A stretch of 38,551 nt of DNA from Myxococcota bacterium (GTDB lineage: Bacteria > Myxococcota_A > Polyangia > Polyangiales > Houyiibacteriaceae): contig JALOQC010000117.1 of assembly GCA_025453555.1 (NCBI GenBank), positions 1 to 38,551 of the forward strand, read 5' to 3'. The notes beneath the pieces were generated by a model. It was not told where the DNA came from. It ran no database searches and saw only the letters and a program-made list of their open reading frames with translations. This document shows, piece by piece, positions 19,549 to 34,133 of this stretch. The position numbers were made by a program, and so were the translations under genes. The number at the start of each line of letters is the position of its first letter. The stretch's first letter is position 1.

Positions 19549-20451
19549 ATGGCGGCGATGAACGCCTCCTCGCATCTGCTGGTTCGCCTCCTGAGCTCGC
19601 TCGCGCTCGTCGCGTGTGCGTCGTCGCCGGAAGTGCGTGATGACGAGGCACGGACGGCGGCCCCCGGCACGAACGAGGCGATGCACGAGCCTGCGCGGGA
19701 GGTGCCGATCGACGTTCGAGCACGCCCTCCGGTGTCGCTGAGGCTGGAGGTCGTCGACGCCAACGACGCCACGCGTGGCGCGCACCTCGCGACCCAGCTC
19801 GAGCGTTTTCGGCGGTGCGTCGATCGCTACCGCGCGGCGCGGGGCTTCGCCGGAGGTCGGTTCTCGATGACGGGGTTCATCCAACCGGACGGAACGTTGA
19901 CGCGAAGCTCGGTCATGGCGCTGGAGTACGGCGACGGATTCGAGCGCTGTCTCGAGCCCGACGTCGCCGCGCTCACGTGGCCACCGACCGGGCTCGACGT
20001 GATGGTCGGATTCACGGCCGCCGTCGTCGTGCACGACGACGCCTCGCGGCGCGCGCCGGACGAAGTGCGACCCACCTTTCCAACACACGACGTTCGTCGG
20101 CAGGCCGCGCCGTCTCGAGCTCCGCAGCTCGGGTGGAGCGCGCTGACCACCACCTCGTCGAGCGTGGACGCGTGGCGCGACGAGCTCGTGGGTCGAAGTG
20201 CCGTTCTCTCCGACTGCTTGTGGCACGCGTGGCCGACCTCCTCGCCTTCGGCGGAGGCCGTCGTCGTCGTTCGAATCGCACCGAACGGAGAGCTCTCCGC
20301 GCGCGTGCGAGGAGAGCACGAGACCCCCGCACCCGAGCTCGTGGAGTGCCTCGGTCGTTTGCTCTCGGTGATGAGCGTGCCCGCGGGAACGAGCGGCGAG
20401 GTCCGCGGACACCTGACGGTCGGCTTCGGCGGTGGCTCGCTCACGTACTGA
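19549..20451 (+). CDS. Lipoprotein with two related Cys-containing domains (AgmX/PglI C-terminal-like)
   Basis: Lipobox LALVAC; FRRCVDRYRAARGFAGGRFSMTGFIQPDGTL and DCLWHAWPTSSPSAEAVVVVRIAPNGELS repeats. Confidence 0.7.
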   Translation: MAAMNASSHLLVRLLSSLALVACASSPEVRDDEARTAAPGTNEAMHEPAREVPIDVRARPPVSLRLEVVDANDATRGAHLATQLERFRRCVDRYRAARGFAGGRFSMTGFIQPDGTLTRSSVMALEYGDGFERCLEPDVAALTWPPTGLDVMVGFTAAVVVHDDASRRAPDEVRPTFPTHDVRRQAAPSRAPQLGWSALTTTSSSVDAWRDELVGRSAVLSDCLWHAWPTSSPSAEAVVVVRIAPNGELSARVRGEHETPAPELVECLGRLLSVMSVPAGTSGEVRGHLTVGFGGGSLTY

Positions 20452-20596
20452 AGCGCATCTCATGACCTCCCGCGGCCGCTTCGCGGCATCCGCACGCCGC
20501 TCGCCGCCATCCACTCACGCTCGAAAGTGCACCACATTGCGTCGGTTCGCGGACGCGGCGATCCACGCACGGGCTGCCACGAATCAACTCACGGAG
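20452..20596 (+). mobile_element. MITE-like repeat, copy 1 (left TIR intact, right TIR degenerate/missing)
   Basis: agcgcatctcatgacctcccgcggccgcttcgcggcatccgcacg...; near-identical to 29475 onward; begins at the nucleotide after the TGA of the upstream gene. Confidence 0.75.
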
Positions 20597-26336: not shown

Positions 26337-28640
26337 ATGCTCGGTGCACGACTCCCCCTCCTCGTCTTCTGCATCGCGTGCTCATCCGCACCCGTCGACG
26401 AACCCCGCCTGGACGGCGCGGTCCGAGACGCCACACGATCACCCGACGCGACCGATCCACGCGACGCGGAGACCGACGCGCGGGTCGTCACGCTGCCGAT
26501 CGAGATTCTCGGCGAACCGGGGACGATCGAGCGGGTGATGCTCGACGTCGCTCGCCCGACCGATGCCGCGTATCTCTGGCTGCAAACCCACCGACTCACG
26601 TGGCGCGAAGACGGCGAGCACGCGACCCTCGAGGCGCCTCGCAACGCCGTGCGACCTGGCACGAAAGGGAGCGTTCGCCTCAACGGCGGCCCCTGGGTCG
26701 GGCTCTCCAACGAGACCGTCTCGTGCGAGTCCCACGAGGCAGAGTACGGCTGCCTCAACGGTGGCTACATGACGGTCCGTCTGCGCGTCGACCTCGCTCG
26801 ACTCGGAGCGCCCGGCTTGCGCGAGGTCGACAACGAGCTCGAGCTTCGCTTCGACGAGACCGACGGGATCACGAGCGGATGGCGTGTGCTCGCGCTCGAC
26901 TTCCGTGACGCCGGCGGGGCGTCCCTCTCGACCACGACCTTCGTCGAGGACGACCCCGACACGTGGGTGGCGCCTCTGACCGGCGCGGAAGACATCGCGC
27001 GCGGGCGCGAGCTCTTCGTCTCCGCTCCCCTCACCGACCTCGGCTTCGAGAACGAGCGCCACGCGATCCGAGGAACGTGTGCCAGTTGTCACTTCGAGGA
27101 CGGCTACGACCTGGCGTACTTCAACTACTCCAACCGTTCGATCATCGCTCGTTCGCAGTTTCACGGTTTGAGCGAGCTCGAGTCGATGCAGATCGCTTCG
27201 TACGTTCGCTCGATCGACCTCGAGTTACCCGCGGGCCGTCGACGCTCGGAGGCGGGTCGGCCGTGGAACCCGCCCTACCAACCGGGCCCCGGACTCGACT
27301 CGCGGCCGGTCGAGCTCTGGGCTGCGGGCGCCGGCCTCGACGCCGTGCTCGAGCGCGACAGCGAGATGAGGCCGTACTTCTTCCCCGAGGGTCGCATCGA
27401 CCCGCGAATCGTGGGGTCCGAGGGCCACCTGAACCCCCGCGAGACCCCTCAGGCGCTGCAGTATCCCGATTGGAACGCCTGGCTTCCGACGATCGCCGTC
27501 GAGGACCTCGTCGAGGACCCGGCGCTGATCCCCACGAGCGCCCCCTACGAGCGCCTCGCCGAAGCGCGGAGCCTCCTCGCCACGCATCGACGCACCGACT
27601 TCGACACCGCCCCCCAGGCTCGCGCCAGGGTGTTCTTCGCGATACGTCGCTTCGCCGAGTCCCGTTCCATCGGGTTCCCTGGGTCGTACCACTACACCGA
27701 TCGTGACGTACCGACTCCGACTCGAACCCACGAGCTGATGGTGAAACAGACGCGACACAACCTCGCGTACGTCTCGTGGTTCAACCTGCGCCAGTTCGAG
27801 CTCTTTCATCGCTTCGGCCTCGAAGATCAGACCCACGTCAGCCCGGCGTCCGGGGCGCCACGGGTGCCGATCGGCGACCGCAGCTGGGGTTCGACCTTCC
27901 GAACCGTCTTCGAGACGGCTCCTCACTTCGTCGCGGACGGTGCGGGCTTGTCGTTCAACTTCACCCAACCGGGGAACTACCTGTCGACGGCTTGGTACAG
28001 CTTGGAGCAGATCATCAACGGTGGTTTCAACGCAGCTTCGTTCGGAATCGACTGGAACTACCACCCCGGCCACATCTGGAACACGCGCCAGAGCGCGGTG
28101 GGATTCTACCTCGATGGACCGATCCCCGCATATCGCCTGGCGTGGGCGCTCATCTGGTTCTACCAAGCGGTCCCCACGGAGGATTGGCGCACCGAGCCGC
28201 CGACGCCTTTCACGCCTCGTTCGTTCGGGTTCTACCAGCGCCAGTTCATCATCGGCCTGGGTGTCCAGGAAGGAGCGCGCTTGCTCGAAGAGCGGGGCGA
28301 AATCACCCGCGAAGATCGGGCGATGCTGCAAGAGGCGCTGACGCTCGCGTTCCTCGGAGTGGCCGAGAGGTACACACCGGATCAATGGGTGCGACGCACC
28401 GTCGACGACGAGGCACATCGCACGGCCGACAACTTCGAGACGATCGACTACGTCCCGCGCGTTCGCACCGATCTTCCCGAAGGTTACGCGGAGTGGGGCT
28501 ACCAAGCCGACGCCTACTACGCACGAATTCATGAATTGAGCGAGAGCGGCTTGGTGACCCCTGCCACGATTCATCGTCTCTGCGACTGGGGCGCGGGAGT
28601 GTGGCCGCGCGGAGACTGGGATGCGCTGCGCCCGCGATGA
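26337..28640 (+). CDS. Large secreted lipoprotein with a single c-type haem motif
   Basis: Lipobox LLVFCIAC; one CASCH motif (GTCASCHFEDGYDLAYFNYSNRSIIARSQFHGLSELESMQIASYVRSIDLE). Confidence 0.85.
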   Translation: MLGARLPLLVFCIACSSAPVDEPRLDGAVRDATRSPDATDPRDAETDARVVTLPIEILGEPGTIERVMLDVARPTDAAYLWLQTHRLTWREDGEHATLEAPRNAVRPGTKGSVRLNGGPWVGLSNETVSCESHEAEYGCLNGGYMTVRLRVDLARLGAPGLREVDNELELRFDETDGITSGWRVLALDFRDAGGASLSTTTFVEDDPDTWVAPLTGAEDIARGRELFVSAPLTDLGFENERHAIRGTCASCHFEDGYDLAYFNYSNRSIIARSQFHGLSELESMQIASYVRSIDLELPAGRRRSEAGRPWNPPYQPGPGLDSRPVELWAAGAGLDAVLERDSEMRPYFFPEGRIDPRIVGSEGHLNPRETPQALQYPDWNAWLPTIAVEDLVEDPALIPTSAPYERLAEARSLLATHRRTDFDTAPQARARVFFAIRRFAESRSIGFPGSYHYTDRDVPTPTRTHELMVKQTRHNLAYVSWFNLRQFELFHRFGLEDQTHVSPASGAPRVPIGDRSWGSTFRTVFETAPHFVADGAGLSFNFTQPGNYLSTAWYSLEQIINGGFNAASFGIDWNYHPGHIWNTRQSAVGFYLDGPIPAYRLAWALIWFYQAVPTEDWRTEPPTPFTPRSFGFYQRQFIIGLGVQEGARLLEERGEITREDRAMLQEALTLAFLGVAERYTPDQWVRRTVDDEAHRTADNFETIDYVPRVRTDLPEGYAEWGYQADAYYARIHELSESGLVTPATIHRLCDWGAGVWPRGDWDALRPR

Positions 28641-28696
28641 TCGTCGCCACCGCTCGACCCGAGGGTCTCGATTCGTGGGACGAGCCGACGGATCGG

Positions 28697-28716
28697 CCCG
28701 GCGGTCGTTCGCCGGG
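28697..28716 (+). terminator. Small stem-loop downstream of the cytochrome gene
   Basis: cccggcg-gtcgtt-cgccggg. Confidence 0.35.
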
Positions 28717-28779
28717 AGGCGGCTTGGTGCGGTGACTGCCGCAGCCCGCGACCGCCGAGATCGCTTCGAAGGAGGATGT

Positions 28780-29466
28780 GTGCTCAGGTTCGGAATCCTC
28801 GCCCTCGCGGCGCTGGCCCTCGTCGGTTGCCCCAGCTCCTCGCCCACGCGTGGGAGCGTCTGCGACGACCTCGCCGCCGCAGCGTGCGCTCACGCGATCC
28901 GTTGCGAGGCCTGGGGTGGCAGTCGAGCGGACTGCGAGCTCGTCCAGCGGCACGAATGCTGTGGCGAAGACGGCACCTGCGATCAATCGGTCGATCTCGA
29001 CGCCGACGCGTTCGAGGTCTGTGAGGCGACCATTCGTGGTGCGACGTGCGGCAGCAACCCTCTCGTCAGCGACGCGTGTCGGACCGCGATCCGCCCCAGG
29101 TCGAGCCCCGACGCCAGCGTTGGTGTGGATGCCGGGCGCGATGGCGTCGATGCATCGACGGCTCCCGACGCCGGTTCCCCGTCACGGCTCTACGCCAGCT
29201 GTGCGGCGGGGCGAACCTGTGGGTCGAGCGAGGCTTGCTACACGGTCGCGTACGGCACCATCGACTACGTCTGTTCGTCTACGTGCGACGACGACTCGAT
29301 GTGCCCGAGTGGACACTGCTTGCGAACGCGCGCTGCCGCTTCTGGCGAAGACCTCATGGACAGGACTCCGTTGTGCCTCGAAGCATGCACGACGGCGACC
29401 GATTGCACGATCGCGGGCTGGCAGTGCGCGGCGACCCGGACCGGGGCTCAGGTCTGCGTTCCCTGA
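28780..29466 (+). CDS. Cys-rich lipoprotein, Myxococcota type
   Basis: GTG start; VLRFGILALAALALVGC lipobox; many paired cysteines (CSSTCDDDSMCPSGHC, CLEACTTATDC). Confidence 0.8.
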   Translation: MLRFGILALAALALVGCPSSSPTRGSVCDDLAAAACAHAIRCEAWGGSRADCELVQRHECCGEDGTCDQSVDLDADAFEVCEATIRGATCGSNPLVSDACRTAIRPRSSPDASVGVDAGRDGVDASTAPDAGSPSRLYASCAAGRTCGSSEACYTVAYGTIDYVCSSTCDDDSMCPSGHCLRTRAAASGEDLMDRTPLCLEACTTATDCTIAGWQCAATRTGAQVCVP

Positions 29467-29470
29467 CTAG

Positions 29471-29637
29471 CTAGAGCGCATCTCATGACCTCCCGCGGCC
29501 GCTTCGCGGCATCCGCACGCCCCTCGCCGCCATCCACTCACGCTCGAAAATGCACCACATTTCCTCGGTCGCGGACGTGGCGATCGACGCACGGCTGCCA
29601 CGAATCACCTCACGGGAGGTCATGAGATGCGCTCCAG
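29471..29637 (+). mobile_element. MITE-like repeat, copy 2 (complete; perfect 21-bp TIRs)
   Basis: Left TIR gagcgcatctcatgacctccc 29474-29494; right TIR gggaggtcatgagatgcgctc 29614-29634; no transposase inside. Confidence 0.88.
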
Positions 29638-29784
29638 AAGCTCGTCCGATTGCCGCAAGCCGCCCTACCGGACGGCGCGCAGCGAGCGACAGCGAGCGAA
29701 GGCTCGTGGGAGGGCCCCTCGGGCAAGCTGAAGTCGAACCGTCTTGGCGGCGGACGATTCGTCGAACAGCCGTCACGGCGGCAG

Positions 29785-33966: not shown

Positions 33967-34133
33967 AGCTTCGTACTGCGCTACCAGGCTGCTGAAACCT
34001 CACGCGCGCGCTTCACGCGACCAGCGCTCCGCTCGCGCCATCCTCTCACGCTCGAAAATGCCCCGCATTTCCTCGGTTCGAGGCCGCGTAGTTCGAAGCA
34101 CTGGCCTGCACGAATCAAATCACGTAGCTCGAA
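33967..34133 (+). mobile_element. MITE-like repeat, copy 3 (diverged; TIR signature largely lost)
   Basis: Core tcacgctcgaaaatgccccgcatttcctcggttcg...gcctgcacgaatcaaatcac aligns with copies 1 and 2. Confidence 0.6.

Follow-up and report, generated by a model that had tools for sequence, protein, structure and literature searches.

A TA-bounded repeat element in the window

The window, a stretch of 38,551 nucleotides, is contig C545 (JALOQC010000117.1) of an 8.33-Mb Myxococcota draft genome in 699 contigs (G000). At positions 29472-29636 it carries a 165-bp element, preceded by a gene (28621-29466, by the simple codon-bias calls made for the present analysis) that has its own TGA stop, 5 bp before the TA at which the element begins. 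The predicted product of this gene is a cysteine-rich, lipoprotein-like protein of 281 aa with no Pfam match.

The element is bounded by a perfect 21-bp terminal inverted repeat (TIR), GAGCGCATCTCATGACCTCCC, at 29474-29494 on the forward strand and by its exact reverse complement at 29614-29634, precisely where the sequence-only reading had placed them. When the window was shuffled 100 times with its dinucleotides preserved, no such pair appeared, even with up to three mismatches allowed. That reading had also extended the repeat to 24 bp with one mismatch; the single mismatch holds, and the extended repeat (29471-29495 and 29613-29637) measures 25 nt. The transposase-free core that it had put at about 120 bp is likewise as described, with 119 bp between the perfect repeats and no transposase gene inside 29472-29636. 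The left TA of a target duplication (29472-29473) lies inside a CTAG at 29471-29474, with a further CTAG at 29467-29470, and its right counterpart (29635-29636) is mutated to CA.

A conserved structured core occupies 29522-29585 on the reverse strand, as delimited by our covariance model R1, and includes the hairpin CGAGGAAATG-TGGTG-CATTTTCGAG; the strand that reads CGAGGAAATG defines the orientation of the element. The window core scores 73.7 bits against this model of 65 positions, this copy being one of its 19 training sequences. Neither this element nor the Lachnospiraceae element described below matched any of the covariance models of Rfam 15. Two other copies lie in the window, both on the reverse strand: one with the same ends (TIR class A), at 20451-20594, which has lost its right TIR and has its core at 20499-20563, and a decayed copy of a sister class, D, at 33982-34129, with the IS5-type TIR TACCAGGCTGCTGAAA and its core at 34030-34094.

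Copies, target site and empty site

A 167-bp query found about 40 places in the genome of the window, 26 of which are 85-100% identical to the element over most of its length, so the feature is not single-copy. When copies were aligned with their flanks, complete ones spanned TA-GAGCGCATCTCA to TGAGATGCGCTC-TA, and the sequence outside was unrelated between copies. Nearly all end as C-TA-GAGCGC...GCGCTC-TA-G. In most copies a C precedes the TA and a G follows the right TA, which points to CTAG as the target, and since copies with T or G before the TA keep CTCTAG at their far end, the duplication is TA and not the four-base CTAG.

The window element adjoins a second GC-rich repeat, R2 (...GCCGTCCGGTAGGGCGGC...GAGCTTC), as do at least two further copies (L006, L027). 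Where R2 stands without the element it reads GAGCTTC-TA-GTCAGGG (L355) or GAGCTTC-AA-GTCAG (L359), and the window has, in the same reading direction, GAGCTTC-TG-[element]-TAGC-TA-GTCAGGG, with the TA changed to TG (CA on the forward strand) and the CTAG unit doubled. The uninterrupted R2 copies are thus the pre-insertion site of the element, the matching stretch on the gene side of this comparison being short (about 19 nt). The sequence-only reading had seen no target-site duplication and had proposed a comparison of occupied and empty sites. Both versions of one site are found in R2, and the duplication does exist; it was overlooked because it is just a TA within CTAG, one TA is mutated and the CTAG unit is doubled. 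Together with the roughly 40 copies and their precise TA-bounded ends, the empty site supports the architecture of a miniature inverted-repeat element (MITE) that this reading had recognised.

R2 (GCCGTCCGGTAGGGCGGCTTGCG..TCGGCTGAGCTTC) is a dispersed repeat in its own right, present in the window at 29638-29690 on the reverse strand and also at L355, L352, L359, L363 and L367, and it hosts MITE insertions at at least three places. At L409 (1339-1666, contig C36 of genome G009) two elements stand in direct tandem with one common TA, as if the terminal TA of one had served as the target for the other, and at L403 (1501-1532) two class A terminal repeats meet directly to form a 32-bp near-perfect palindrome. 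Draft contigs of the window genome, G005 and G026 often end inside these elements, so the copy numbers given are minimum values, and assembly gaps may conceal autonomous partners.

Placement relative to genes

Coding flanks that run into an element end in frame at its terminal TAG in 27 of 34 cases. CTAG is nearly absent from coding sequence in these genomes: in G010, the 75 CTAG sites outside elements comprised 22 stop codons, 46 intergenic sites and 7 coding sites, and 10 of the 16 CTAG sites at element ends were stop codons. A preference for CTAG targets in a GC-rich genome therefore explains most of the placement on stop codons. Because the element starts with G, a TAG stop is rebuilt when it inserts at the TA of a TAG or TAA codon. 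The orientation of elements relative to neighbouring genes and to GC skew showed no consistent bias in G010 and the window genome.

Differing ends around a conserved core

Of 38 genomes searched, the element was present in 13, which are related Myxococcota, and beyond the closest copies the sequence matches covered mainly its middle. By reading the flanks, and by searching automatically around the core for inverted repeats bounded by TA, we obtained a usable set of 57 elements from these 13 genomes, nearly all of which, when full-length, measure 163-168 bp, and which fall into about ten or more TIR classes. Class A, that of the window element, is TAGAGCGCATCTCATRACC; others include TAGAGCCTGATCCAGGA, TAGCAGGCTGCTGAAAAA, TAGAGCGTGATTCGAAATAGG and TAGGAGGCTGGTGTCAAACG, as well as TAGGAGTGYGTMGCGC, TAGCAGCTTGCGGCRAAA, TAGTGCGTGATCCAGACC and TAGCAGGCCGTTGAAG. 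One genome can hold several classes (three in G010, at least three in that of the window). For class pairs with a TIR identity below 55%, the TIRs are on average 33% identical and the cores 69%, against 48% (maximum 59%) for shuffled cores. The core, and not the ends, is the conserved part of this element superfamily. Across 377 Myxococcota genomes the core covariance model matched in 10, convincingly in 7 genomes of the family of the window genome and in G026, which belongs to a different family of the order. Plasmid sequences gave no match.

These data bear on a simpler account, in which a single old palindromic MITE lineage had TIRs that drifted along with the diverging transposases of one superfamily, its core being functionless and its copies young or exchanging sequence. 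The TAG and TA duplication common to all ends, and the likeness among several classes (TAGAGCGCATCTCA, TAGAGCACATCTCA, TAGAGCGTGATTC), are what such drift would leave. However, TIRs are normally the conserved part of such elements, and here their identity is near random against 69% for the core. On this and the evidence of the next two sections we consider this account rather improbable, and favour ends that were exchanged around a conserved middle. Class C and class A elements abut end to end at several loci, and one such junction is a fused, chimeric terminal repeat (L004/L369), which shows that ends can recombine and offers a possible route for end swapping.

Candidate transposases

On contig C525 of the window genome we found an intact IS5-family element that encodes a 325-aa protein (NCBIfam NF033581, 265 bits; Pfam DUF772 and DDE_Tnp_1), with the ends TAGCAGGTTGCTGAAAAACGG and TA on its flanks. 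A class D copy in the same genome (L242) begins TAGCAGGTTGCTGAAAAACG, and its 20 terminal bases are identical to those of this element. The sole IS630-type (DDE_3) gene found in the window genome lies between the ends TAGAGCACGGATCACG and TAGAGCACGATCCAGGAGCGG. The class C end, TAGAGCCTGATCCAGGATCGG, resembles TAGAGCACGATCCAGGAGCGG, whereas class A has little in common with TAGAGCACGGATCACG beyond TAGAGC. There is thus fair evidence overall that two transposase families may serve one core, firm for IS5 and suggestive for IS630, as judged from the terminal bases. The presence, in one genome, of ends that agree with or are similar to those of transposons from two families distinct in Pfam is at odds with TIRs that merely drifted within one transposase superfamily.

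Two derivations of the window element itself were rejected. As an IS630-derived element of the Correia or RUP type it would carry a TIR that matches an IS630 element, and its class A TIR has little beyond TAGAGC in common with the only one found in the genome, class C being closer; as an IS5-derived element it would carry the IS5 TIR, a match that holds for class D and fails for class A. The sequence-only reading had suggested looking for an autonomous transposon bounded by the same 21-bp ends. None turned up in the genome itself or in 116 genomes of the order: a search with the exact class A TIR pattern returned no inverted pair at 0.8-2.5 kb among the first places listed for each genome, just spacings of about 150 bp and single ends. 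No IS5-like protein was present in the loci examined for a class A partner, and the few elements that PF13751 and PF05598 retrieved from relatives all had ends other than those of class A.

Folding and strand asymmetry

The core hairpin has the form C-GA-G-G-AAATG...CATTT-T-C-GA-G (CGAGGAAATGC), that is, an outer C-G pair, two facing G-A mismatches, a G-C pair and a fixed G-U pair, followed by the stem. In 19 representatives, 95% of cells are paired and four pairs have changed on both sides, a covariation signal that is abolished when the pairing partner is shifted; the CGAGG and TCGAG segments are invariant. The whole element forms a hairpin of about 70 pairs. Folded as RNA, the forward strand of the window element reaches -92 kcal/mol (z = -7), and in its family the opposite strand folds even better. 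In every one of 49 elements the CGAGG strand gives the more stable fold, with a mean of -104 kcal/mol against -79 for the other strand when folded as RNA, and in 26 representatives the outer helix, outside the core, has 120 G-U pairs on the CGAGG strand against 23 on the other, in classes that have common ancestry and so are not independent cases. A freely drifting palindrome should prefer neither strand, and we read the asymmetry as past selection for the folding of the CGAGG strand, as RNA or as single-stranded DNA. Among recent copies in three families, transitions that keep a pair exceed those that break one weakly (53 against 35). Selection in place that is so weak among recent copies would suit a MITE with a functionless core, but the strand-specific excess of G-U pairs extends outside the core, which argues against that account and for the conserved structured middle that we prefer.

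A module that may change its transposase

We propose, with a probability of roughly 0.7, that the window feature is a complete MITE of a Sandaracinaceae-type superfamily with a conserved structured middle and exchanged ends, mobilised in trans. A transposase acting in trans would cut at the TIRs of the class A element, which would then insert at TA, with CTAG preferred; when that TA belongs to a TAG or TAA stop, insertion would restore TAG, and many copies do sit exactly on stop codons. In the superfamily of about 165 bp, the terminal 20-25 bp or so would have been exchanged for the ends of different transposases, IS5-type for one sister class and probably IS630-type for others, while the middle was kept. 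We infer that the middle is a structured module acting at the RNA level, read from the CGAGG strand, and that sequence drift in the long closing helix could lead it to mimic the ends of such transposons as are present.

The definition and naming of MITEs rest on the ends, and what lies between is regarded as filler. The window copy itself is an ordinary-looking MITE; its family is out of the ordinary in its conserved structured middle and exchanged ends, the reverse of the usual pattern in such elements. Searches of the open-access literature yielded no account of MITEs whose core is conserved while the ends are exchanged, and none of MITEs in myxobacteria. The Correia elements of Neisseria and the RUP elements of Streptococcus pneumoniae are moved in trans by an IS630-type transposase and their transcripts fold (for reviews, see PMC10969869, PMC2229807, PMC3049150). 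The present elements are similarly short, TIR-bounded, TA-duplicating and multi-copy, but Correia and RUP keep one kind of TIR, whereas here a constant core carries the TIRs of several transposon types. Likeness to the IS630 family (Pfam DDE_3) lies in the TA duplication inside CTAG and in the TAGAGC with which the genome's IS630 element also begins; past TAGAGC its ends are unlike class A, and only class C is close. With the IS5 family (NF033581, transpos_IS5_4), identity over the 20 terminal bases concerns class D, and class A ends differ. If our proposal is true, a conserved middle with changing ends would make the middle the unit of selection, and the family would offer a direct system for the study of how non-autonomous elements change transposase.

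A similar hairpin in Lachnospiraceae

A scan of GTDB genomes for the pattern CGAGGAAATGN{3,6}CATTTTCGAG returned at least 104 stretches and, among the matches listed, almost all came from Myxococcota or from Lachnospiraceae-type Clostridia. Among 300 Bacillota genomes drawn evenly, the exact-hairpin pattern matched in the centre genome only, so that the Lachnospiraceae form is restricted. There the outer helix leads into a long variable stem, which commonly has a CTTG loop; in many cases a small GA-loop hairpin comes next, and then the core-type hairpin, with CGAG/GCGA motifs at its foot. In genome G389, unselected copies found with the whole element gave the same hairpin consensus, and a model built from Myxococcota only found the hairpin in 20 of 20 regions (E = 0.001-0.5). 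The CGAGG strand again folds better, in 68 of 71 elements (61 of 71 with the hairpin masked), and 7 of 18 copies in G389 lie on the G-richer strand. In G389 and related genomes there are copies that have the TIR GTAACTATTCAGAGCC and duplicate 8 bp of target, without a mismatch in L087, L091 and L138, as is typical of IS66 elements. Copies without IS66-like ends are mostly placed in sense behind genes, 36 against 7 in antisense.

The likeness between the two phyla gives thin ground for homology, since it spans 25 nt and the stem already accounts for half of these. It could reflect common ancestry, a shared binding partner or chance, of which we consider chance the least likely. A wider reading, which we put forward tentatively and hold to be clearly less probable than our main proposal, is that of a mobile structured-RNA module, with the hairpin C-GA-GG-AAATGC-NNN-GCATTT-T-C-GA-G, its tandem G-A mismatches and fixed G-U, which travels between bacteria in two phyla on borrowed ends, its closing helix imitating the TIRs of three or more kinds of transposon (IS5-like, IS630-like and IS66-like), and which settles in the 3' regions of genes and acts on mRNA. 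Such a module would be a further mobile structured element, one that Rfam lacks and that may act on genes both in myxobacteria and in gut Lachnospiraceae.

The hairpins could instead resemble REP/BIME sequences, the core hairpin being the substrate of a REP-associated tyrosine transposase (RAYT) or another single-strand enzyme and the TIRs secondary. Like REP/BIMEs, these are intergenic hairpins that often lie behind genes; their structure is strand-specific, CGAG/GCGA motifs mark the foot, and the sense bias of Lachnospiraceae copies behind stop codons fits as well. Nevertheless, the window family has clean TIRs and target duplications, and precise TIRs with TA or 8-bp duplications indicate DDE transposition. 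No RAYT-like protein or motif, and no convincing reverse transcriptase, was found near elements in the examined loci, and we regard such an origin as quite unlikely. Least probable of all is that the elements are no longer mobile and represent a fixed structured RNA, or an element of mRNA 3' regions, spread by duplication of flanking genes. The constant spacing behind tuf, 114-116 nt after the stop codon at most loci in that Lachnospiraceae group, would suit this, yet different copies in the Myxococcota have nothing in common in their flanks as far as the TA itself, and one insertion site is also seen in its empty form; this refutes the idea for the family of the window. For that family we retain a mobile element with exchanged ends.

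At L082, L104, L130, L137, L146, L150 and L105 the tuf-linked element lies in sense at a fixed distance after the stop codon, 114-116 nt in most of them, tuf being named from its N-terminal sequence, and part of the element there resembles an intrinsic terminator, beyond which two more hairpins follow. At L133, L113, L095, L103, L106 and L119 the element stands behind peptide chain release factor, guaA-like or ribonuclease Y-like genes, or between acyl-CoA dehydrogenase and etf genes, all named from N-terminal sequence only, and at loci of this type it could possibly be a recurrent 3'-region RNA of expressed operons.
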